Source: Bacillota bacterium (GTDB taxonomy: Bacteria; Bacillota; Sulfobacillia; JAJZYS01; JAJYTV01). Taken from it: a stretch of 41,223 nt of DNA. The stretch lies in NCBI GenBank assembly GCA_021847575.1, contig JAJZQO010000019.1, forward strand, positions 1 to 41,223, read 5' to 3'. Shown here in pieces: positions 1-12,663 of this stretch. The translations under genes and the position numbers were made by a program. The notes below the pieces were generated by a model that saw nothing but the letters and a program-made list of their open reading frames with translations, ran no database searches and was not told where the DNA came from. The number at the start of each line of letters is the position of its first letter. Position 1 is the first letter of the stretch.

Positions 1-87
1 TATGCTCTTCTTGATCCGTCAGGCAGGGGATCTGCCCTCCTAAGACCGTCCGCTACCTCGTCTGTCTGACTGTCCACGTATCATTCA

Positions 88-110
88 ATCTGAGTCTGTC
101 TGTCTCAGAT
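88..110. promoter_or_regulatory. Perfect palindromic element upstream of the first hydrolase gene
   Basis: Two 7-bp arms, ATCTGAG (88-94) and CTCAGAT (104-110), form a perfect inverted repeat around a 9-nt centre. It follows a -10-like TATCAT at 79-84, for which I see no good -35. Size and position, about 95 bp before the hydrolase start, suit an operator for a dimeric regulator, but a short RNA hairpin is equally possible. The rest of 1-203 shows nothing else I can name. Confidence 0.35.
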
Positions 111-203
111 AACCCGAACGCCAACAGTCAAGGGGACGGCAGGGGAGCAGCTGGCATTGACGAAACCTGACTACGACGTCAGGAGCGGCAAGGAGGGATC
201 CGC

Positions 204-1259
204 GTGAAGGTCCGTGGGCTGAGGCGCAGCACTGCGCGACTGGAAACCTATGCGCGCGTAGCGGGGGATGAAGGCTCAGATCTTCTGGTGCTCGTGCACG
301 GCAACGCGTCATCGTCCGTCTTTTTCGACGAGTTGATGGAGTCCCTCGCCGACAGGTACTTCGTGGTGGCGCCCGATCTGCGCGGCTATGGCGAAAGCCA
401 GGCGCTGCCGATCGACGGCAGCCGGGGCATGCGGGACTTTTCGGACGACCTGCGTGCGCTGCTGGAGGCCCTCGGGTCGGGCCTGCGGCCGCACCTCCTC
501 GGCTGGTCGATGGGCGCGGGCGTCGTCATGCAATACGCGATCGATCACCCGAGCGAAGTGCGCTCGCTCACCCTCGAAAGCCCCTTGCCGCCGTACGGCT
601 TCGGCGGCACCAAGGATGTCGACGGCACGCTGTGCTGGCCCGATCGGGCCGGCAGTGGCGGCGGCGCTGCGAATCCGGAATACGTGCGGCGGCTCGCTGA
701 GCGGGATCGCACGGAGGACAGCCCGTTCTCGCCGCGCAACGTGATGAATTCCTTCTACTTCAAACCTCCGTTCCGTGTGTCGCGGCCACGGGAGGAAGAG
801 CTCGTCTCAGCCGTTCTGGCCATGCGGGTCGGCGAGGGATTCTATCCCGGTGGCGCCCGGCCTTCCGAGAACTGGCCCGGCGTCGCCCCCGCCGCGGACG
901 GCATCAACAACGCCATGGCACCAGGCTACTGCGATCTCTCGGGAATTGCCGCCATCTCGCCGCACCCGCCGATCCTCTGGCTGCGCGGGCGCGATGACCA
1001 GATCGTCTCGGACGCGTCCCTGCTCGACTTTGGCACGCTCGGACAGCTTGGCGCGGTTCCGGGCTGGCCTGGCCCCGACGTCTTTCCGCCGCAGCCGATG
1101 GTGGGCCAGATGCGTCACGTGCTCGACCGCTACGCCCTGGCGGGCGGCCGCTACCGGGAGGTCGTCATCGATGGCAGCGGGCACTCGCCGCACCTGGAGC
1201 AGCCAGCGGCCTTCCTTGCGGCCCTGCTCGCTTTCCTCGCGCCGGACGAAGGCGCGTGA
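204..1259 (+). CDS. Alpha/beta-hydrolase fold protein
   Basis: A 351-residue cytoplasmic hydrolase of the alpha/beta fold; the substrate cannot be told from sequence. Family marks in order are an oxyanion-loop HGN (residues 32-34), the DLRGYGES turn near 58-65, the nucleophile elbow GWSMGAG with Ser102, an acid candidate in the GRDDQ segment, and the catalytic His327 in a GHSPHLEQP motif near the C-terminus. A longer than usual region between the elbow and the acid (about 120-250) forms the lid and probably decides specificity. The GTG start is set by an AGGAGG at 191-196 with 7-nt spacing. It stands alone, preceded by a palindrome at 88-110 and closed by a 16-bp inverted repeat. It may be an esterase, epoxide hydrolase or haloperoxidase-like enzyme. 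Confident in the fold, not in the function. Confidence 0.85.
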   Translation: MKVRGLRRSTARLETYARVAGDEGSDLLVLVHGNASSSVFFDELMESLADRYFVVAPDLRGYGESQALPIDGSRGMRDFSDDLRALLEALGSGLRPHLLGWSMGAGVVMQYAIDHPSEVRSLTLESPLPPYGFGGTKDVDGTLCWPDRAGSGGGAANPEYVRRLAERDRTEDSPFSPRNVMNSFYFKPPFRVSRPREEELVSAVLAMRVGEGFYPGGARPSENWPGVAPAADGINNAMAPGYCDLSGIAAISPHPPILWLRGRDDQIVSDASLLDFGTLGQLGAVPGWPGPDVFPPQPMVGQMRHVLDRYALAGGRYREVVIDGSGHSPHLEQPAAFLAALLAFLAPDEGA

Positions 1260-3085: not shown

Positions 3086-3161
3086 GGCCCCATGGTCTAG
3101 AGGCCCAGGACACCACTCTTTCAAGGTGGGAACACGGGTTCGAATCCCGTTGGGGCCACCA
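3086..3161 (+). tRNA. tRNA-Glu (anticodon TTC)
   Basis: A 76-nt tRNA with the CCA end encoded. Acceptor arms GGCCCCA (3086-3092) and TGGGGCC (3151-3157) pair fully, and the discriminator A and CCA end at 3161. The anticodon stem is CCACT/GGTGG with one T-G wobble. The loop CTTTCAA (3118-3124) places anticodon TTC at 3120-3122, reading Glu codons. The T arm carries the standard GGTTCGAATCC. It stands alone between the SASP gene and the MarR gene. Confidence 0.95.
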
Positions 3162-3212
3162 GACTTCCGGCGCGAAGCGGCATACCACGCTGCCCGCGCC
3201 CTTTTTCATATC

Positions 3213-3258
3213 TTGACAGGCAAATGGCGTCAGGGGATAGTTAAGCGTCTAAACTTAA
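3213..3258 (+). promoter_or_regulatory. Promoter and likely autoregulatory operator of the marR-macAB cluster
   Basis: TTGACA (3213-3218) and GATAGT (3236-3241) are spaced 17 bp, a good sigma-A promoter. An inverted repeat TTAAG (3241-3245) / CTTAA (3254-3258) with an 8-nt centre begins at the -10 and covers the transcription start. An operator in this place would let the adjacent MarR protein repress itself and the exporter genes. Confidence 0.6.
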
Positions 3259-3278
3259 TCGAGAAGGGTGGTTTCACT

Positions 3279-3755
3279 GTGGCCGAGCCGGACGTGGACG
3301 AGCTGATCACGCTGCTGTTCCAGACCCTTGCGTCGTTGCGCCGCCAGCGGCGCAGGGATGCCGGAACAGGGCTCGGGCCAAGTCACCACATGCTGCTCTG
3401 GCGACTCAAGTCGCCTGAGCACCCGGATGCGGACTGGCCCCATGGGCCCTCGCGCGTATCGGACCTCGCCAGGGCGCTTCAGTTGACACCCGCCGCCATC
3501 ACGCAGCTCGTGGCGGAACTTGAGGGCCGCGGCTACGTCCGGCGCGAACGGAACCAGAGGGATGGGCGGGTCGTCTTCGTCAGTCTGACCGAGGCAGGTG
3601 AGGAGATTCTCATGGCTGATCGCGTCCGCCGTCGCGCCGAGATCCGCCGGCTCGTCTCAGCCCTCGATCCGGAGGACCGTGGGGCGCTCGTGCGTATCCT
3701 GCATCGGCTGCTCGAGGTCGGGCCCGAAGATGCCGAAGGCGGACGGTCGTCTTAG
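3279..3755 (+). CDS. MarR-family transcriptional regulator
   Basis: A 158-residue winged-helix repressor of the MarR family. Helices at the N-terminus (ELITLLFQTLASL) form the dimer arm. The recognition helix lies in LTPAAITQLVAELEGRGYV, followed by the wing with the family-typical R-x-R-N-x-x-D-G-R pattern (RERNQRDGRVVFVSLTEAG). The C-terminal helices complete the dimer. GTG at 3279 is chosen because an AGAAGGG precedes it and the promoter at 3213-3241 rules out longer reading frames. It directly precedes the adaptor/ABC exporter genes on the same strand, so it most likely controls that exporter in response to a drug-like ligand. The inverted repeat over its promoter is the probable operator. 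Confidence 0.88.
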   Translation: MAEPDVDELITLLFQTLASLRRQRRRDAGTGLGPSHHMLLWRLKSPEHPDADWPHGPSRVSDLARALQLTPAAITQLVAELEGRGYVRRERNQRDGRVVFVSLTEAGEEILMADRVRRRAEIRRLVSALDPEDRGALVRILHRLLEVGPEDAEGGRSS

Positions 3756-3844: not shown

Positions 3845-5947
3845 ATGCGACGCGTCGTAACCACCGTCGCGGTGGTCGTAGTGGTGCTGGTCGTGGCCTT
3901 TTTCGGTGTTCGCGCGTTGCGTGCAGGGCAAAGGTCGAAGACGCCCAACGTTGCGGTGGCGACCGCCTACAACGGACCTTTGACTGTCAACGTGACGGGC
4001 AGTGGCACCGTGCAGGCCGCCACGTCCGTCAACGTGAACGCCCAGGAGCCGGGAACCGTGACCTCGGTTCCGGTCGAGGTGGGAAGCCGGGTGCAGGCGG
4101 GCCAGATCTTGGCCACCGTGGCGGACACCCAGGGGACGCTCTCGTCCAACCTGCTGTCGGCTGAGGCGCAGCTGGCCGCCGACGAAGCCAGCCTGACCCA
4201 GCTCGTGGCGCCCACGCCTCCGTCCGCGGATCAGGTCCAGGCCGACACTCAGCGCATCGCGGTCGACCGGCAGAACATCGCGAACGAGCAGCAGAAGATC
4301 GTCGCGGACCGGCAGAACATCCCGAACCAGAAGCAGAAGATCGCCAACGACAAGCTCAGGATCGCGAACGACCAACAGGCCATAGCGAACCAGCAGCAGA
4401 CCATCGCGAACCAGCAGCAGAAGATCGCCAGCGACGAGCAGAACCTCCAGTATCTCGCAGTCAGCTCACCGGTCTCGGGCCTGATCTCCAGCGTCGGCGT
4501 GGGCGTCGGCCAGAACGTGGGCCAGGGAACGACCGTCTTCCAGGTCGTGCAGCCCACAGAGATTGACGTGCAGACCAGCGTTCCGGAGATCGACCTGCCC
4601 AACATCTACGTCGGCCAGGGCGTACAGGTCTGGACGCAGGATCAGGGAACCATGCAGGCCGTGGTGCAGACCATCGGCGTGACGTCGAGCGGATCCAACC
4701 GGCAGGGAGCCCTGTTCCCGGTCACGCTCAGCGTCGAAAATCCGCCGACGGGGCTCAGGGCAGGCATGAACGCCACTGCGGACTTCACGCAGGCCTATCT
4801 GACGGAAACGGGCACCATCGCCTTCGCCGGCACGCAAGCCGTGACGGCGCAGGTGTCAGGCACCGTGCTGACCGTCGCGCTGCAGGCTGGCCAGACGGTG
4901 CAAGCGGGTGAGACGGTTCTGACCCTTTCGAACCCTTCTCTGGACACGCAGCTCTCGTCCGACCAGGCGCAGCTCTCGTCCGACCAGGCACAGCTGTCGA
5001 CCGAACAGACGCAGCTTGCGAGCGACCAGCTGCAGGTGAGTTCGGACGAGACCACACTGATTTCGGACGAGGCGGTGCCGAACTCGGACAAGGCGCAGCT
5101 CGGCTCGGATCAGGCTCAGCTCAGTTCTGACCAGGCGGCGCTGCAGCAACTGCTGCACCCGACCCCTCCCGCCGCGGAACAGGTAGCCTCGCAGAGGGCC
5201 AAGATCGCCGTGGACCAGCAGAGTGTCCAGCGTGCGAGGAACGCGCTGGCCGATCTCAACATCGCGAGCCCGATCGCCGGCATCGTCACGGCCGTCAATG
5301 TGCAACCCGGCGACACGGTCGCCCAGGGCAGCGGTGTCACCAGCGCCAACAGCGCATCGACCACGATGTCCGCTTCGACGGCTCCGTTCGCTGTCGAGGC
5401 GCCGAACTCGCTCCAGATCCTCGTGCCGATCAGCGAGGTGTCGATTGCGCAGGTGAGGGTCGGCCAGCGGGTCGTCGTCACATCCGACGCGCTGCCTGGC
5501 CGGACGTTCTTCGGCACGGTTGCCCTGATCTCGCCCGCCGGCACCAACTCGTCCGGTGTTGCGAACTTCAACGTCATCGTGACCGTAGCCAGGCCCGGCA
5601 GTCTGCTCGCCGGCATGTCCGCCAGCGTCACGATCGACGTCGCGTTCGTCCCAAGCGCACTGCTCGTGCCGGTGGAGGCGGTCAGCGGTACAGGCCGGGC
5701 GGCGACGGTGAAAGTCGTCAAGAACGGCCGGATCAGGGTGCAGAGGGTCGCGACGGGCCTGTCGAACGACGTTGCCGTTCAGATCCTGGCCGGACTTGCG
5801 GCGGGCGACAAGGTGGTCACCGCCACGGTGTCAACTTCGACCTCCACGCCAGGCTTCGGCGGCGGCCCTTTCCGCAGTCGCTCCGGTAGCCAGGGCGGGG
5901 GCTTCGGCGGTAACCAGGGCTCCAGCACTGGCAGCGGAGGCCAGTGA
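3845..5947 (+). CDS. Tandem-duplicated HlyD/MacA-type efflux adaptor with two long heptad-repeat arms
   Basis: A 700-residue adaptor (membrane-fusion) subunit of a MacAB/YknXYZ-like exporter. One membrane anchor lies at about 4-25. Two complete adaptor modules follow: half lipoyl (about 53-92), coiled coil (97-204), second half lipoyl (207-235) and beta-barrel (240-317); then half lipoyl (322-362), coiled coil (366-470), half lipoyl (472-498) and barrel (523-600). A membrane-proximal domain (602-662) and a Gly/Ser-rich tail end the chain. Both hairpin tips share a PTPPxAxQV motif (about 123-131 and 439-447). Nine tandem heptads sit after the tip in module 1 (138-200) and nine before the tip in module 2 (370-432). 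Normal adaptors of this class are about 350-450 residues with one module. ATG 3845 follows a GAGGGGGAA site. The ABC ATPase and permease genes follow at once, so the three form one operon with marR. Confidence 0.88.
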   Translation: MRRVVTTVAVVVVVLVVAFFGVRALRAGQRSKTPNVAVATAYNGPLTVNVTGSGTVQAATSVNVNAQEPGTVTSVPVEVGSRVQAGQILATVADTQGTLSSNLLSAEAQLAADEASLTQLVAPTPPSADQVQADTQRIAVDRQNIANEQQKIVADRQNIPNQKQKIANDKLRIANDQQAIANQQQTIANQQQKIASDEQNLQYLAVSSPVSGLISSVGVGVGQNVGQGTTVFQVVQPTEIDVQTSVPEIDLPNIYVGQGVQVWTQDQGTMQAVVQTIGVTSSGSNRQGALFPVTLSVENPPTGLRAGMNATADFTQAYLTETGTIAFAGTQAVTAQVSGTVLTVALQAGQTVQAGETVLTLSNPSLDTQLSSDQAQLSSDQAQLSTEQTQLASDQLQVSSDETTLISDEAVPNSDKAQLGSDQAQLSSDQAALQQLLHPTPPAAEQVASQRAKIAVDQQSVQRARNALADLNIASPIAGIVTAVNVQPGDTVAQGSGVTSANSASTTMSASTAPFAVEAPNSLQILVPISEVSIAQVRVGQRVVVTSDALPGRTFFGTVALISPAGTNSSGVANFNVIVTVARPGSLLAGMSASVTIDVAFVPSALLVPVEAVSGTGRAATVKVVKNGRIRVQRVATGLSNDVAVQILAGLAAGDKVVTATVSTSTSTPGFGGGPFRSRSGSQGGGFGGNQGSSTGSGGQ

Positions 5948-5948
5948 G

Positions 5949-6674
5949 ATGGCGGACGTCATCCGCGTGGAGTCTCTCAAGCGGATCTATCGCATGGGGG
6001 ACGTCGAAGTGGCAGCCCTCCAGGGCCTGGACTTCGCGATACCAGAGGGACAGATGGTAGCGATCATGGGTCCTTCGGGATCGGGAAAGTCGACGCTGCT
6101 CAATCTCCTTGGCTGCCTGGACCGACCCAGCGCGGGTCGTTACTTCCTGGGCGGCGAGGAGGTGGGGCGCAAATCCGACGACGCGCTCGCGGATGTGCGC
6201 AACAGGCGGATCGGCTTCGTCTTCCAGAACTACAATCTGCTGCCCCAGCTGACCGCGCTCGAGAATGTCGAACTGCCGCTCGTCTATCGCGGCCTCGGCC
6301 GCACCCAGCGCCGCAAGCGGGCGGAGGATGCCCTTGCGGCGGTCGGCCTCGCCGAGCGCCGCCACCATCGTCCACTCGAGCTCTCAGGCGGGCAGCAGCA
6401 GCGTGTGAGTGTGGCCCGCGCGCTGGCGGGCGAGCCCGATGTGATCCTGGCGGACGAGCCGACGGGCAACCTCGACTCGACATCGGGCGAAGAGGTGCTG
6501 CGCTTGTTTCTCGCGTTGCACAAGAGCGGACGCACCATCGTGATCGTCACCCACGACGAGGATGTGGCGCTGCATACCGAGCGGATCGTCCGCCTCCGCG
6601 ACGGCCGCGTCGTTGCCGACGACCCTGTGCCGGCCTCGAGCAGGCATACCCTTGGGGAGGTGCAGGAGCTGTGA
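5949..6674 (+). CDS. MacB/LolD-type ABC transporter ATP-binding protein
   Basis: A 241-residue ATPase that powers the exporter formed with the adjacent permease and adaptor. Walker A GPSGSGKS is at 41-48, the Q-loop in VFQNYNLLPQ (91-100), signature LSGGQQQR at 145-152, Walker B VILADE at 165-170, D-loop in NLD, and the switch His202 in VTHDED. These features, with the LPQLTALENVELPL segment, place it in the lipoprotein/macrolide exporter subfamily (MacB NBD, LolD, YknY). The ATG is one base past the adaptor stop codon, and the stop codon shares a base with the permease start, so all three are coupled. It is a stand-alone NBD, unlike proteobacterial MacB where NBD and permease are fused. Confidence 0.93.
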   Translation: MADVIRVESLKRIYRMGDVEVAALQGLDFAIPEGQMVAIMGPSGSGKSTLLNLLGCLDRPSAGRYFLGGEEVGRKSDDALADVRNRRIGFVFQNYNLLPQLTALENVELPLVYRGLGRTQRRKRAEDALAAVGLAERRHHRPLELSGGQQQRVSVARALAGEPDVILADEPTGNLDSTSGEEVLRLFLALHKSGRTIVIVTHDEDVALHTERIVRLRDGRVVADDPVPASSRHTLGEVQEL

Positions 6675-7843
6675 TGATCCTCGAGAGCATGCGCATGGCC
6701 TGGCGCAGCCTGATGATGGGCAAGCTGCGCGCGTTCCTGACCATGCTGGGCATCATCATCGGCGTCGGCGCCGTGATCGCCCTGATCTCGATCGGCCAGG
6801 CAGCGACGGGCTCGGTCACGTCGCAGATCCAGGCCCTCGGCTCCAACCTGATCACGGTGACTCCCATGCGCTCCGCCGGCGCGGTCCTCTACTACCCGCA
6901 AGACGTGGCGTGGCTGAAGCAGGTGGTTCCGCAGATCAGCGCCGACGCGCCGCTGATGACCGGCCAGGTCACGTCGGACTACGGATCCCAAAGCTACGCG
7001 ACGACCCTCATGGGCACATCGCCCGCGTCCTTGCAGATCCAGGGCCGCAAGCTCGCCGCGGGGCGGTACATCATCGCCTCCGACGTGACGTACCGGCGGG
7101 CAGTCGCCGTGATCGGACCGACCGTGGAGCAGCAGCTCTTCGGCGTGACGTCCGGACTGGGCAAGACCATCTACGTGAACGGTACCCCGCTTGCCGTGAT
7201 CGGCGTCCTGCAAAGCGCGGGCGGCAGTTTCGGGGCGAACGCGGACGACGTGATCCTCACCCCTGTCACCACGGCCGAAGAGATCCTCGGTACCAATCAG
7301 GTCAGCTCGATCATCGCTGAGGCACGATCCTCGGACATTGCTCCACTTGCGGTGGCACAGATCGAGGCGGTCATGGATGCGCGTTTCGCCAGCCAGAACG
7401 CCGCAGTGGTCGTCTCGCAGGATCAGATCCTCTCGGCCCTCTCCACCATCACCAACACCCTGACCCTGATGCTGGGCGGCATCGCCGGCATTTCGCTGCT
7501 CGTCGGCGGCATCGGCATCATGAACATCATGCTGGTGACGGTGGCCGAACGTACGCGGGAGATCGGCCTGCGCAAGGCTATCGGCGCGCGTCGGGGCGCT
7601 ATCCTGACGCAGTTCCTGGTCGAATCCGGCATTCTCAGTCTGGTCGGCGGGGCGATCGGTGCTCTGCTCGGCGGCCTCGGTGCCACGATCATGGCCAGGG
7701 CACTCGGCTGGAGCGGAGGCGTGGCGACCAACTCCATTGTCCTTGCCCTCGGCTTCTCGCTCGTCGTAGGCATCGTCTTCGGCATGTGGCCCGCCATGCG
7801 CGCCAGTCGCCTGGATCCGATCGAGGCCTTGCGCCAGGGCTAG
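6674..7843 (+). CDS. MacB-like ABC transporter permease (FtsX domain)
   Basis: A 389-residue permease with the four-segment MacB/FtsX topology. TM1 is at about 20-40, a large extracytoplasmic MacB_PCD domain runs from about 41 to 255, and three TM segments end the protein. The coupling helix sequence ERTREIGLRKAIGARR between TM2 and TM3 is the conserved FtsX contact to the ATPase. ATG 6674 is preferred over GTG 6671 because it lies 5 nt after AGGAG. With the ATPase and adaptor it should form a tripartite exporter of drugs, peptides or lipids; the substrate is not visible. In a single-membrane cell there is no TolC partner, so the adaptor's role is less obvious than in Gram-negative MacAB. Confidence 0.92.
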   Translation: MILESMRMAWRSLMMGKLRAFLTMLGIIIGVGAVIALISIGQAATGSVTSQIQALGSNLITVTPMRSAGAVLYYPQDVAWLKQVVPQISADAPLMTGQVTSDYGSQSYATTLMGTSPASLQIQGRKLAAGRYIIASDVTYRRAVAVIGPTVEQQLFGVTSGLGKTIYVNGTPLAVIGVLQSAGGSFGANADDVILTPVTTAEEILGTNQVSSIIAEARSSDIAPLAVAQIEAVMDARFASQNAAVVVSQDQILSALSTITNTLTLMLGGIAGISLLVGGIGIMNIMLVTVAERTREIGLRKAIGARRGAILTQFLVESGILSLVGGAIGALLGGLGATIMARALGWSGGVATNSIVLALGFSLVVGIVFGMWPAMRASRLDPIEALRQG

Positions 7844-8468: not shown

Positions 8469-8525
8469 TGTCGCACGGTGCTCGCCCACGTTCGTCACGA
8501 GCCGAGGCGGCGTGGCGCCTATACT
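8469..8525 (+). promoter_or_regulatory. Probable spoIIE promoter with a possible Spo0A box
   Basis: TATACT at 8520-8525 lies 27 nt before the spoIIE ATG and is the best -10 candidate. TGTCGCA at 8469-8475 matches the TGTCGAA-type 0A box at 6 of 7 positions, but a single box 45 bp upstream is weak support. In Bacillus spoIIE is transcribed by sigma-A with Spo0A~P. The rest of 8356-8552 shows no gene. Confidence 0.35.
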
Positions 8526-8552
8526 TGCCGAGACAAACGACCTCAGCAGCGC

Positions 8553-10694
8553 ATGGCGTTGCAGCCTGGGGGCGGTTTCTTGGCTGGTCGGCCGGGACGC
8601 GGTGATGCGCCTCTGGACCGCAGGCAGTGGCTGCACCTCGCCCTCGTGGGCGTACTCGGAATCGTCCTGGGACAAGCGTCGGTGGGCAACCCCGCCTGGC
8701 CGCTCGGCCTTGCCGCGGCCGGAGGTCTTGCGGAACTGCCTTTCGGGGCGCTTGGCGTCATCCTGGCCGCCTTGGGCACGCTGCTGCGGGGCGCGGATGG
8801 CGCCGTCCTGTCGGCCTTGCTGAGTTGCGTCCTGCTGCCGGTTGCGATCTCCGAGGGCCTGTGGCCCAAGCTTCGCCGCGGGATCGGGGGCCCGCTCGCG
8901 GCGGGTGGCCTGGCGCTGCCGCTCGCGCTAGCTCTGCCAGGGGATCTTTCCCGCATCCTTGTCGTGCCCGTCTCCGTCATCGGAGGCTGGACGATCTTCT
9001 TCGCGTGGCGTGCTCTGCAGGGGGAGCGACCGCACCAGCGGCGTCTGGCCGCGGGCCTCCTGGCGATGGCGGCGGTCTGGTCGCTGCAGTCGGCGCCGTT
9101 CCCGTTGCTTGATCCGGGCCTCCTGCTCGCCATCGGCCTGGTCTATCTCGCCCTGCGCTGCCGGCTTCAGGCGTCCGTGCTCGCCTTGGCCTTCGGCGCT
9201 TTGCTCACGCTGGGCGGCTTCGTAACTGCGGCGGCGGGGCTCTGGCTTGCGGTCGGCGGGGCCGCCGGCACCGCCTTGCGCCGGTTTGGGCCGTTTTGGA
9301 GCTGGTTCGGCCTGGCGGTCGCCCTCGCGCTCATGGTGCCGCTACTGCCGGCCAACGCAGGCGAGGCGGTTGTCGGGTTCGCCCTGCTCCTCCTGGTGCT
9401 CGGGCAGGCGATTCCGGAATCCCTGTTCAGTGCCGTGAAACGCGTTTTTGAGCCGCCGCCGCCACCGCCGCCGGCCGGACCCGAGGAACGGGTGCGGGGG
9501 GCGCTCGACCAGCTCGACAGCCTGATACGCGCGCTGGCGCCGGAGGCGGCGGCGACGGAGGCCGAGGAAGCCGACGTCGCACGCTTTCTCGGCAGCGTGC
9601 GGGAGCATGTCTGCAGCGGCTGCGCGCACGAACGCACCTGCTGGGACCAGGGCTTCTACCGCACCTACACCGGAGTGCGCCAGCTGATGCTGCACCAGGA
9701 CGGCAATCCGGCAAGCGGCAAGGATCTGCCGGCGGAGCTGCGCCAGCGCTGCCCGAGACCTGACCAGGTGGCGACGGCCGTCTCGGTGGCCGGCGATCGC
9801 CTGCGCGCCGAGGCGAACGTGAGAAGGCTCCTTCAGGCGGAGCGCACCCTGACACACGACGTCCTCCTGGGCGTGCGCCAGATGCTCGGCTGGGCCTTCG
9901 CGCAATCGGTGGACCCGGTCCCGCCGAGACTCCACTACACCTGCGGCATCGCGCAGTTGGCCAAGGGCAAGAGCAGACTGAGCGGCGACAGCTATCTCGT
10001 GCGCGAACTCGACGAAGGGAGGCTCCTCATCGCCATCTCGGACGGCATGGGGACCGGCTATGCCGCGGCGGAACAGAGCGCCGGGGCACTCGACGCCCTC
10101 GAGGGTCTGGTCGCGGCGGGCATGGACCCGGTCCTCGCGGTGCGCAGCACGAACGCCGTGCGGCGCGCCATGGGAGGCGACAGCTACGCCACATTGGACG
10201 TCGCGCTTGTGGATCTTGCCGCGGGTGAACTGGCGTCCCTCAAGATCGGTGCCCCTGAGACATACCTTTGGCGCGGTGACGACGTGCAGGTGCTGCGCGG
10301 CGAAGCCTTGCCCCTGGGCGTTCTGCCCGAGGCCGAGGCGACAGTGCAGCACCTCGCTCTGCACGCTGGCGACAGGCTCGTCCTGGTCTCGGACGGGGTC
10401 CTCGAGACAATGCCAGGCCAGCGGGGCGCGTGGCTGGAGGCCGTGCTCAAGGCCCTGGGCGGCCGGGACCCGCAGTTCCTGGCGGAAGCCATCCTGGACG
10501 CCGCGCTGGGACAAAGGAACACGCCGCGGGACGATGCCACGGTTCTGGTGGCCGGGTTCTACCCCAGCCCAGGGGCAGACATCCAGCCGTGGCTCAGGCG
10601 CCCAGCCGTGGCCGGGATAGCCTTGGCCGCGCAGGGAAAGAATGCTGGTGGAAGGAGGCGTGTCCCATGGGCGAGGCGGTCGATAGACCGGTGA
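8553..10694 (+). CDS. spoIIE: Stage II sporulation protein E (SpoIIE) phosphatase
   Basis: A roughly 713-residue SpoIIE, the polytopic PP2C-type phosphatase that dephosphorylates SpoIIAA at the asymmetric septum and so activates sigma-F in the forespore. The first about 300 residues form a bundle of some ten hydrophobic segments. A run of seven prolines near 310-320 leads into the regulatory region, which contains a cysteine cluster (HVCSGCAHERTC). The last about 230 residues are the PP2C domain, with metal-binding ISDGMGTG, VSDGVLE and the late RDDATVLV motif. ATG 8553 is used because the likely -10 at 8520 excludes a GTG at 8478; TTG 8580, after GGGGGCGG, is also possible. The 3' end overlaps the next gene by 28 nt. 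The gene order matches spoIIE-yabT-tilS of Bacillus. Confidence 0.92.
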   Translation: MALQPGGGFLAGRPGRGDAPLDRRQWLHLALVGVLGIVLGQASVGNPAWPLGLAAAGGLAELPFGALGVILAALGTLLRGADGAVLSALLSCVLLPVAISEGLWPKLRRGIGGPLAAGGLALPLALALPGDLSRILVVPVSVIGGWTIFFAWRALQGERPHQRRLAAGLLAMAAVWSLQSAPFPLLDPGLLLAIGLVYLALRCRLQASVLALAFGALLTLGGFVTAAAGLWLAVGGAAGTALRRFGPFWSWFGLAVALALMVPLLPANAGEAVVGFALLLLVLGQAIPESLFSAVKRVFEPPPPPPPAGPEERVRGALDQLDSLIRALAPEAAATEAEEADVARFLGSVREHVCSGCAHERTCWDQGFYRTYTGVRQLMLHQDGNPASGKDLPAELRQRCPRPDQVATAVSVAGDRLRAEANVRRLLQAERTLTHDVLLGVRQMLGWAFAQSVDPVPPRLHYTCGIAQLAKGKSRLSGDSYLVRELDEGRLLIAISDGMGTGYAAAEQSAGALDALEGLVAAGMDPVLAVRSTNAVRRAMGGDSYATLDVALVDLAAGELASLKIGAPETYLWRGDDVQVLRGEALPLGVLPEAEATVQHLALHAGDRLVLVSDGVLETMPGQRGAWLEAVLKALGGRDPQFLAEAILDAALGQRNTPRDDATVLVAGFYPSPGADIQPWLRRPAVAGIALAAQGKNAGGRRRVPWARRSIDR

Positions 10695-11347
10695 TCTGGG
10701 GTGACGCGCACCGCTACCAGATCGGAGTCGCGCTGGGGGAGCGCACCTTCTGGGCCCTGGATGAGGCAGGCCGTGCCTGGGTGGTGGAGATCGGCCGCTC
10801 GGAGATCGTGCAGGCGCGCGCAGCGCTGGTGCGACGGCTACCGGCAGGGTTGTTGCCTCGCATGCGCGAGTGGGGGGAGATGCCCGGAGGACGGCTGTCC
10901 TATCTCGTCAGCGAATTTGTTGCGGGGTACACGCTGACGACCTTTCTCGAGGAGGGGCGACGCCTGGCGCCTGGCGAGCTGCGCGGTCTGGGCTTCGACG
11001 TCGGGCTGGCGCTGGACGTGCTCGCGAGGCATGCCGTGGAGCTTACGGCGATCGCGTCGGACGAGATCATTTGGAGCGCGCACGAGCGGCGTTGGCGCCT
11101 CCTTGCGCCTGGTCGCTGGCAGAACTGCGAGGGCGGCCCGCTCGATCTGGCCTGGCTGGCGACGGCCATGCTGGCCGCAGGCGGCAGTGTGCCCGGAGAG
11201 GAGCCGACGTGGGCGAGGGAGGATCGCCGGCTCTGGCGGCTGCTGCAGGAGGCGCAGGACGGGCGGTTCACGCCGCGGGGCTGGCTGCGGCGGGTCCGGC
11301 GGCTGCGCGATGTGGTGCGCGCGCTTGGCGCCGCAGCGCAGCCTTAG
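10667..11347 (+). CDS. Catalytically degenerate protein kinase-like protein (YabT position)
   Basis: A 226-residue protein in the place where Bacillus carries yabT, a sporulation Ser/Thr kinase, between spoIIE and tilS. The middle part resembles a kinase hinge and C-lobe entrance (LSYLVSEFVAGYTLTTFLEEGRRL, like a hinge followed by helix D), with helix-E-like sequence after it. No glycine loop, VAIK lysine, HRD-K-x-x-N loop or DFG can be found. The chain contains no lysine at all, so it cannot have the ATP-binding lysine. No membrane segment or DNA-binding tail typical of YabT is evident. ATG 10667 has a GGAGG 6-10 nt upstream and lies inside the spoIIE end, so expression is coupled to spoIIE. 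I read it as a pseudokinase; the homology is inferred from short motifs and position. Confidence 0.65.
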   Translation: MGEAVDRPVIWGDAHRYQIGVALGERTFWALDEAGRAWVVEIGRSEIVQARAALVRRLPAGLLPRMREWGEMPGGRLSYLVSEFVAGYTLTTFLEEGRRLAPGELRGLGFDVGLALDVLARHAVELTAIASDEIIWSAHERRWRLLAPGRWQNCEGGPLDLAWLATAMLAAGGSVPGEEPTWAREDRRLWRLLQEAQDGRFTPRGWLRRVRRLRDVVRALGAAAQP

Positions 11348-11367
11348 CGGCAGGATGGCGCAGCGGG

Positions 11368-12663
11368 ATGTCGAAGCCGGGCGCCATGCAGGATTTGCAG
11401 GCGCTCGTGCGGATCGGGCTGGAAGAGACTGACCTCGTCGGCAGCCGCATTGTCGTCGCCGTGTCCGGCGGGCCGGATTCGGTGGCGCTGTTTCACATCC
11501 TTACGCGGGTGGCTGCGGAGGCGCGGATAGGGTTGCACCTGTGCCACATCGACCACGGCTGGCGGCCGGAGGCGGCCGAGGCGGAGGCCGCCATCTGCCG
11601 CGGGCTTGCCGAGCGGTCGAACGTGGGCTGGAGCGTCGTGCACCTGCCGCCGCCGCCGGTGCGAAGCGAGGAGAGCGCGCGGGACGTCAGGCGGTCCGTC
11701 CTGCTGAGAGTCATGCGGGCAGTCGGTGCGCAGGCGATCGCCCTCGGCCATCAGGCAGACGACCAGGCGGAGACCGTCATCATGCAGCTTGTCCGAGGCA
11801 CCGGCGCCGCCGCGGGCATGCGGCGTTGGCGTCCTCCCTTCTGGCGGCCCCTGCTGCAGGTCGAGCGTTCGTCGCTGCAGGACTACTGCCGGGAGCACGG
11901 ACTCGCGTTTGCCATCGATGCGACGAACCTGTCGGGCAAATACGGGCGCAATCGGGTCCGCATCGACCTGATGCCCCTTCTGCGCCGCGAGAATCCGCGC
12001 GCAGCGGAGGCCTTGGGTCGCTTCGCCGCGCTGCGGGGTGAGGAGGAGGATTGGCTCGAGCAGGAGGCCGCGACCATTGTCGCCGCCCTGCCGAGATGGC
12101 CAAGCGGTATCGATCTCAGGCCCCTGGCCAGGCAGCCGCTCCCTATGCAGCGTCGGGCCCTCAGGCGCGTTCTCGCCGAGCGTGGGGTGGCGCTTGGGGC
12201 CGCGCGGCTAGGCGAGGTGCACCAGGCGCTCGTGTCCGGCGGCCGCATTTCGCCGAGGGCGGACCTGCGCCTGGAGCACGGGCTCCTCTCTTGGCCTGAG
12301 GTGCCTTTGCCCTGGTCAGGCATCGTGCCGGGCGGACGTCTCCTTTGGGGAGATTTGCGCTTCGGGGTCGGCATGGCCCCCTCCGACGCGCTGTCGGCCG
12401 AGGTTGGCGAGGGTACCCTCTCGGTGCGGCCACGCCGACCCGGCGACCGGCTGAGGCTAGCGGGCGGCACACGCAAACTCCAGGACATCCTGGTCGATGC
12501 CCGCGTGCCCAGAGCCGTGCGCGACCGCCTGCCCGTCGTCTGCCGGGACGGGCGACCCGTGTGGCTGCCAGGGCATCCGTGCGGACTGGACGCGGGGTTC
12601 GGACGCACGGTCTGGGTCGGGTCAGCGGAAGTTGTTGCACAACTTTGGCGTGTGCTAGAATGA
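11368..12663 (+). CDS. tilS: tRNA(Ile)-lysidine synthetase TilS
   Basis: A 431-residue TilS, which uses ATP and lysine to convert C34 of the CAU-anticodon tRNA-Ile to lysidine so that it reads AUA. The PP-loop SGGPDS is at 33-38, followed by the CHIDHGWRPEAAEAE and LGHQADDQAETVIMQLVRGTG segments and the NRVRIDLMPLL motif. The C-terminal substrate-binding domain has the typical RRPGDRLRLAGGTRKLQDILVDARVPR. ATG 11368 is chosen, with a second in-frame ATG at 11386; neither has a strong ribosome site. It follows the pseudokinase gene by 20 nt, in one operon with spoIIE. The hpt gene usually next to tilS is absent here. Confidence 0.95.
   Translation: MSKPGAMQDLQALVRIGLEETDLVGSRIVVAVSGGPDSVALFHILTRVAAEARIGLHLCHIDHGWRPEAAEAEAAICRGLAERSNVGWSVVHLPPPPVRSEESARDVRRSVLLRVMRAVGAQAIALGHQADDQAETVIMQLVRGTGAAAGMRRWRPPFWRPLLQVERSSLQDYCREHGLAFAIDATNLSGKYGRNRVRIDLMPLLRRENPRAAEALGRFAALRGEEEDWLEQEAATIVAALPRWPSGIDLRPLARQPLPMQRRALRRVLAERGVALGAARLGEVHQALVSGGRISPRADLRLEHGLLSWPEVPLPWSGIVPGGRLLWGDLRFGVGMAPSDALSAEVGEGTLSVRPRRPGDRLRLAGGTRKLQDILVDARVPRAVRDRLPVVCRDGRPVWLPGHPCGLDAGFGRTVWVGSAEVVAQLWRVLE
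12632..12661 (+). promoter_or_regulatory. Promoter of ftsH
   Basis: An extended -10, TGCTAGAAT (12653-12661), overlaps the tilS stop. TTGTTG at 12632-12637 is a weak -35 with an 18-bp spacer. This would give ftsH transcription independent of the spoIIE-tilS genes. Confidence 0.5.

Follow-up and report, generated by a model that had tools for sequence, protein, structure and literature searches.

A probable double-ended adaptor with a shared coiled-coil stalk in a MacB-type ABC exporter of a Bacillota bacterium

Described adaptors and the present locus

In ordinary adaptors, the tip of a helical hairpin meets TolC. MacA (E. coli, A. actinomycetemcomitans), the periplasmic adaptor of MacAB-TolC, combines lipoyl, barrel, and membrane-proximal domains, with one lipoyl domain and barrel per chain and a free tip that binds TolC. 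Adaptors of MacB-like pumps also occur in single-membrane bacteria, where Spr0693 of Streptococcus pneumoniae (PDB 5xu0; PMC5768738) and Bacillus YknX each consist of a single module. Spr0693 assembles as a hexameric nanotube with a helical barrel 56 Å high and an apex ~154 Å from the membrane (PMC5768738). EmrA of Aquifex aeolicus (PDB 4tko; PMC4158417) has a very long coiled coil of 127 Å, formed by an ordinary hairpin, with no second head or membrane-proximal domain, and its partner is an MFS pump. A hairpin is missing altogether from BesA of Borrelia burgdorferi (PMC3807786).

Here we describe an adaptor encoded in a 41,223-nucleotide stretch of a Bacillota genome (GCA_021847575.1, contig JAJZQO010000019.1; hereafter the window). 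It shares with MacA the lipoyl, barrel, and membrane-proximal domains and the linkage to a MacB-type transporter; MacA is the best sequence and structure match of its base, and the base domains of BesA also align. Unlike these proteins, it appears to have a second lipoyl-plus-barrel head. We consider it probable that the protein is a single long rod with two ends that serves as adaptor to a MacB-type ABC exporter, with swapped lipoyl halves, a shared stalk, and a distal head, which by analogy would act in transport as a hexamer. Solved structures matched by sequence were MacA and other adaptors, none of them recognised as two-headed, and a search of reviews and open-licence literature returned no account of an adaptor carrying two lipoyl domains. 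Adaptors with four lipoyl halves are common across the sampled phylum, and the layout is apparently a widespread, undescribed variant.

Gene cluster and domain layout

The adaptor is a clear member of the HlyD/RND_mfp (membrane fusion protein) superfamily, with scores above the curated cut-offs for HlyD_3 (98.9 against 22.2 bits), HlyD_D23 (91.4 against 30 bits), and Biotin_lipoyl_2 (57.8 against 29.8 bits), and with the Pfam groups HlyD_3, HlyD_D23, and Biotin_lipoyl each matching over several stretches. The NCBIfam MacA equivalog (NF008606, cut-off 342) scored 71.6 bits. An HMM built from lipoyl halves found exactly four in the 700-aa chain (Table 1), and four halves and two barrels depart from the one lipoyl domain, one barrel, and free-tip hairpin of a canonical single-module adaptor. 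A preliminary description of this DNA had proposed two complete lipoyl–helix–barrel modules in one chain; the twofold repeat is borne out, but the modules are probably not complete in themselves, since the halves are predicted to be exchanged (1a with 2b, 1b with 2a).

Table 1. Features of the adaptor gene and its neighbours (window coordinates; aa numbering of the adaptor)
Feature	Coordinates	Strand	Basis
MarR-family regulator (start approximate)	3156..3755	+	Pfam MarR E 4.8e-12; upstream of adaptor in L001-L004 too
Whole adaptor gene, 700 aa	3845..5947	+	NCBIfam RND_mfp 212 bits, cut-off 94.9
N-terminal membrane anchor, residues 1-26	3845..3922	+	Hydrophobic run; AF2 helix 2-26
Lipoyl half 1a (base), residues 58-94	4016..4126	+	Half HMM; MacA, Spr0693, BesA fits from 43-49 to 600-605
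Helix A, residues 95-122	4127..4210	+	AF2 helix 98-121; length constant among relatives
PTPP break 1 (probable), residues 123-126	4211..4222	+	Antiparallel pairing puts PTPP 1 level with PTPP 2
Arm B, nine heptads, residues 138-200 (Ile-A-N-D-Q-Q-x)	4256..4444	+	Single AF2 helix 128-200
Lipoyl half 1b (distal), residues 203-236	4451..4552	+	Predicted to pair with 2a: biotin carrier fit 203..362
Barrel 1 (distal head), residues 237-322	4553..4810	+	HlyD_3; 92% identity L006 vs L001, base parts 15-32%
Lipoyl half 2a (distal), residues 323-363	4811..4933	+	Biotin carrier fit with 1b
Arm C, nine heptads, residues 370-432 (Leu-S-S-D-Q-A-Q)	4952..5140	+	Single AF2 helix 364-437
PTPP break 2 (probable), residues 439-442	5159..5170	+	Sequence motif
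Helix D, residues 443-470	5171..5254	+	AF2 helix 444-469; length constant among relatives
Lipoyl half 2b (base) + loop, residues 471-514	5255..5386	+	Half HMM
Barrel 2 (base), residues 515-608	5387..5668	+	HlyD_D23/RND_mfp match; MacA fit
Membrane-proximal domain, residues 609-660	5669..5824	+	RND_mfp match up to 663; AF2 confidence low
Gly/Ser-rich tail, residues 661-700	5825..5944	+	Sequence; AF2 pLDDT < 50
ABC ATPase	5949..6674	+	Pfam ABC_tran E 7e-34; 85-88% identical downstream in L001, L003, L004
MacB-type permease	6671..7843	+	Pfam MacB_PCD E 1.6e-39 + FtsX; 87-88% identical in L001, L003, L004

The adjacent ABC ATPase and MacB-type permease mark the locus as a MacAB-type exporter, and the order MarR regulator, adaptor, ATPase, permease is kept in L001, L003, and L004; the L002 locus ends just past the adaptor, and L006 and L007 carry diverged partners. 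Further along the window (8478-12663), open frames read like SpoIIE, with a phosphatase-type C-terminus, and then TilS, a common order in Bacillota. A search of the genome, which is 99.4% complete, returned no member of the TolC family (OEP, PF02321), the same search being positive in 7 of 14 control genomes, and the Omp85 family was likewise not found there, its controls also being positive. No outer membrane was thus detected in this bacterium, nor the TolC-family channel of a MacAB-TolC tripartite system, as the preliminary description had supposed, and a TolC-type channel is an unlikely docking partner.

Mechanical action is known for MacB-family proteins. We weighed whether the protein is a stalk for mechanical signalling or wall sensing, not a duct, whose head is moved by a MacB/FtsX-type pump, for example to regulate a wall enzyme. 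Two relatives with a peptidoglycan-binding domain at the base would suit such a role, as would the precedent of FtsEX (discussed in PMC5768738). We nevertheless think it unlikely, because lipoyl, barrel, and membrane-proximal domains typify export adaptors. The upstream MarR regulator points the same way: such regulators are common in efflux cassettes.

Matched arms and pairing of the lipoyl halves

Arms B (after the first PTPP motif) and C (before the second) each contain nine heptads. Position a is Ile in 9/9 heptads of arm B, and Leu in 7/9 heptads of arm C, with Val once and Pro once. The preliminary description had counted nine heptads on each arm and held that the arms expanded separately, and both points hold, the Ile motif of B differing from the Leu motif of C. 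Its proposal of recent expansion from near-identical 21-mers holds in part. Period-21 DNA arrays lie at 4270-4428 and 4947-5016, and the best two units, neighbours within 4950-4991, are 20/21 identical; since the remaining units have diverged, only part of the heptad expansion looks recent.

Most d positions in both arms (4256-4444, 4952-5140) are Asp or Glu, adjoining one Ile or Leu; these could be uncharged if the cell surface is acidic. Each long arm also has one proline (residues 160 and 412; 4322-4324 and 5078-5080), and the two would be no more than roughly a heptad apart when paired antiparallel, a possible matched kink; matched arm prolines were not seen in L001-L004.

Relatives were gathered from genome collections, and arm lengths were measured between fixed anchors. 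In relatives of the same layout, the regions of helix A (~33 residues) and helix D (~41 residues) are nearly invariant, and B/C lengths occur in four states: 41/32 in the sister genus, 48/39 in L004, 62/53 in L001-L003 and L006-L007, and 90/81 in the window, which correspond to 2/2, 3/3, 5/5, and 9/9 heptads with B minus C constant at 9 residues. A separate 3/3 state, both arms being 80 residues, occurs in L056 (identical to L018), which comes from a different family of the same order. The nine-heptad form is the longest case among the four-half adaptors sampled. The matched counts exceed chance, every examined relative of the same layout having equal heptad numbers on the same two arms; unmatched numbers among relatives, which the preliminary description had named as fatal to its claim, were not what the comparison returned. 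Over 74 four-half proteins, the correlation between the two arm lengths is r=0.91, and independent contrasts on an arm-free tree give r=0.94 and a slope of 0.98. Because the B (Ile-A-N-D) and C (Leu-S-S-D) motifs differ, their equal gain would be a sign of selection to keep the arms matched, not of a single duplication event.

There were three apparent mismatches: L103 (30/56), L141 (30/47), and L145 (30/55). The first two look like wrongly measured half ends, since half 2b of L103 is interrupted by a Gly/Ser insertion and the match in L141 is split; the L145 value rests on a partial match. A 40/30 group has extra residues before half 1b, apparently a non-helical loop.

The helices on either side of an ordinary adaptor's tip must match in length to join its lipoyl halves. 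In the window protein, A (~28 residues) and B (~76 residues) are unequal, and the pairs of equal length are A with D and B with C. In antiparallel register the residue numbers sum to a constant (123+442 = 126+439 = 203+362 = 565), which sets the two PTPP motifs level. Earlier read as hairpin tips, these motifs are probably breaks within a long stalk. In many relatives, the halves are only ~30 residues apart on each arm, enough for one helix but not for its return, and such a chain could connect 1a only to 2b and 1b only to 2a. Several lines thus favour swapped lipoyl halves, with 1a+2b and 1b+2a probably forming the two domains in place of self-contained modules.

AlphaFold2 (AF2) models were built with 8-sequence alignments for the window protein (pLDDT 65.7, pTM 0.31) and for the short-arm L005 (pLDDT 64.2, pTM 0.30). 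Confidence is moderate, and how base, stalk, and head lie relative to one another is accordingly uncertain. The monomer prediction, which the preliminary description had proposed as a check, gave each long arm as one helix, again at modest confidence. The second head sits on the outer end of the helices in the models. Biotin/lipoyl carrier domains fit the window model over 203..362 (70 aa, rmsd 1.1-1.4 Å) and the L005 model over 154..313 (both models together, 69-71 aa, 1.0-1.4 Å), a fit that, within these models, requires 1b and 2a to make up a single lipoyl domain into which barrel 1 is inserted. Spr0693 aligns with 227/231 residues over 49..601 of the window model, BesA with 236/266 residues over 34..550 of L005, and one MacA, in Foldseek, over ~640 columns. 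These adaptor fits run from before 1a to past 2b and support the order and connectivity, not the exact placement, as their rmsd is 6-20 Å and more. Enterococcal PrgA (PDB 6z9l) also has an antiparallel coiled-coil stalk, although it is an unrelated protein that resembles the adaptor in shape alone. It aligns with 215 residues over 94..470 of the model, near the sum of the four helices, and this length suggests that the stalk is extended rather than folded back.

Across 65 proteins (effective number 46), mutual information between the four lipoyl halves gave no clear signal. Correlations between their distance matrices were highest for 1a-2b (0.63), but 2a was tied to 1a (0.58) and 2b (0.57) no less than to 1b (0.55), and the matrices lend the exchange at best weak support.

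The preliminary description had suggested mutual pairing of the long arms, or pairing between subunits. The lockstep lengths in relatives and the AF2 models support a pairing of B with C. An exchanged topology in which arm B pairs with arm C of the neighbouring chain, an inter-subunit swap in the ring, would give an identical lockstep, and the MacA and Spr0693 rings are tightly packed (PMC5768738). It appears improbable, however, given that the AF2 monomers close the pairs within a single chain and that no sequence evidence demands exchange between chains.

Two relatives from the same genus as the window (L006:5833-7905 and L007:5782-7854) are chimeras. Their stalk and distal head resemble the window protein, and their base belongs to another HlyD type and includes a PG_binding_1 domain. 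Identity between L006 and L001 is high in the head (1b 65%, barrel 1 92%, 2a 71%) and low in the base (1a 30%, 2b 15%, barrel 2 32%, membrane-proximal domain 32%), which indicates that the base was swapped as a block. Read from these identities, the exchange boundary splits base from head, as the swapped topology predicts, and cuts both supposed modules. Adaptors with a PG-binding base and no stalk were not found in 149 genomes of the phylum, a search that had no positive control and is therefore uninformative.

Least probable of all are two ordinary tandem modules, each complete in lipoyl domain and hairpin and with the extra heptads as unpaired or inter-subunit coils, possibly three chains per ring: the half–helix–PTPP–helix–half–barrel order does occur twice, 1a/2a and 1b/2b are most alike, as expected of tandem duplication, and the ~58 residues between halves on both sides of short-arm forms would by length alone suit two hairpins, but the B/C lockstep with A and D fixed, the relatives with ~30-residue arms, the AF2 pairing of 1b with 2a, and the chimera boundaries are left unexplained. 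Pairing of each long arm within its own hairpin was set aside in view of the lengths, the models, and the chimera boundaries.

Proposed assembly and its implications

In the double-ended architecture that we favour, the chain would be a tandem of lipoyl half, helix, lipoyl half, and barrel, its two copies running antiparallel with exchanged halves. Halves 1a and 2b, barrel 2, and the membrane-proximal domain would form the base and dock on the MacB-type permease, as expected from the MacA/Spr0693 family (PMC5768738). Helices A-B are predicted to run outward and C-D back as one antiparallel coiled-coil stalk, and at the far end, in place of a hairpin tip, halves 1b and 2a with barrel 1 would make up another head. 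Since B would pair with C, heptads could be added only in matched numbers, the stalk growing by 7 residues per arm per step. As with MacA and Spr0693, six copies may form a tube, here with a ring at each end, through which substrate would be carried from the membrane and released within or beyond the wall. A half-size ring of three chains, raised in the preliminary description, was discarded, as each chain provides only one base set of lipoyl domain, barrel, and membrane-proximal domain.

At 1.5 Å per residue, the ~103-residue stalk alone is estimated at ~155 Å, to which the distal head is added, compared with the 56 Å helical barrel of Spr0693; with stalk and head added, the assembly would reach an estimated ~300 Å from the membrane, and it is possible that the adaptor spans the wall. 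Some relatives have more halves, rare ones as many as eight. L100 (L136) has four plus four lipoyl halves in mirror order around barrel 1, with spacings of 55, 38, 38 on one side and 27, 27, 59 on the other, and L126 resembles it; these proteins are ~870 aa long. Judged by their sequences, eight-half adaptors may have gained extra storeys on both strands, making multi-storey stalks possible. L129 (776 aa) has three half–helix–half–barrel repeats, the middle one with a long helix-loop-helix.

More tentatively, and leaning somewhat against it ourselves, we suggest that the assembly might be a built-in exit duct that single-membrane bacteria have in place of TolC: two adaptor rings set tip to tip on a shared, length-tunable stalk, with eight-half proteins as multi-storey versions and matched heptad gain setting a length that could track wall thickness.

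Adaptors are usually described as hairpin-tipped proteins that dock on TolC, and a class common in this phylum seems instead to end in a lipoyl-plus-barrel head. If so, the architecture would give a concrete picture of a MacA-type adaptor where the outer membrane is absent, and would provide a natural system in which two arms of one protein are forced to gain equal numbers of heptads. Stalk length could then be related to envelope thickness.
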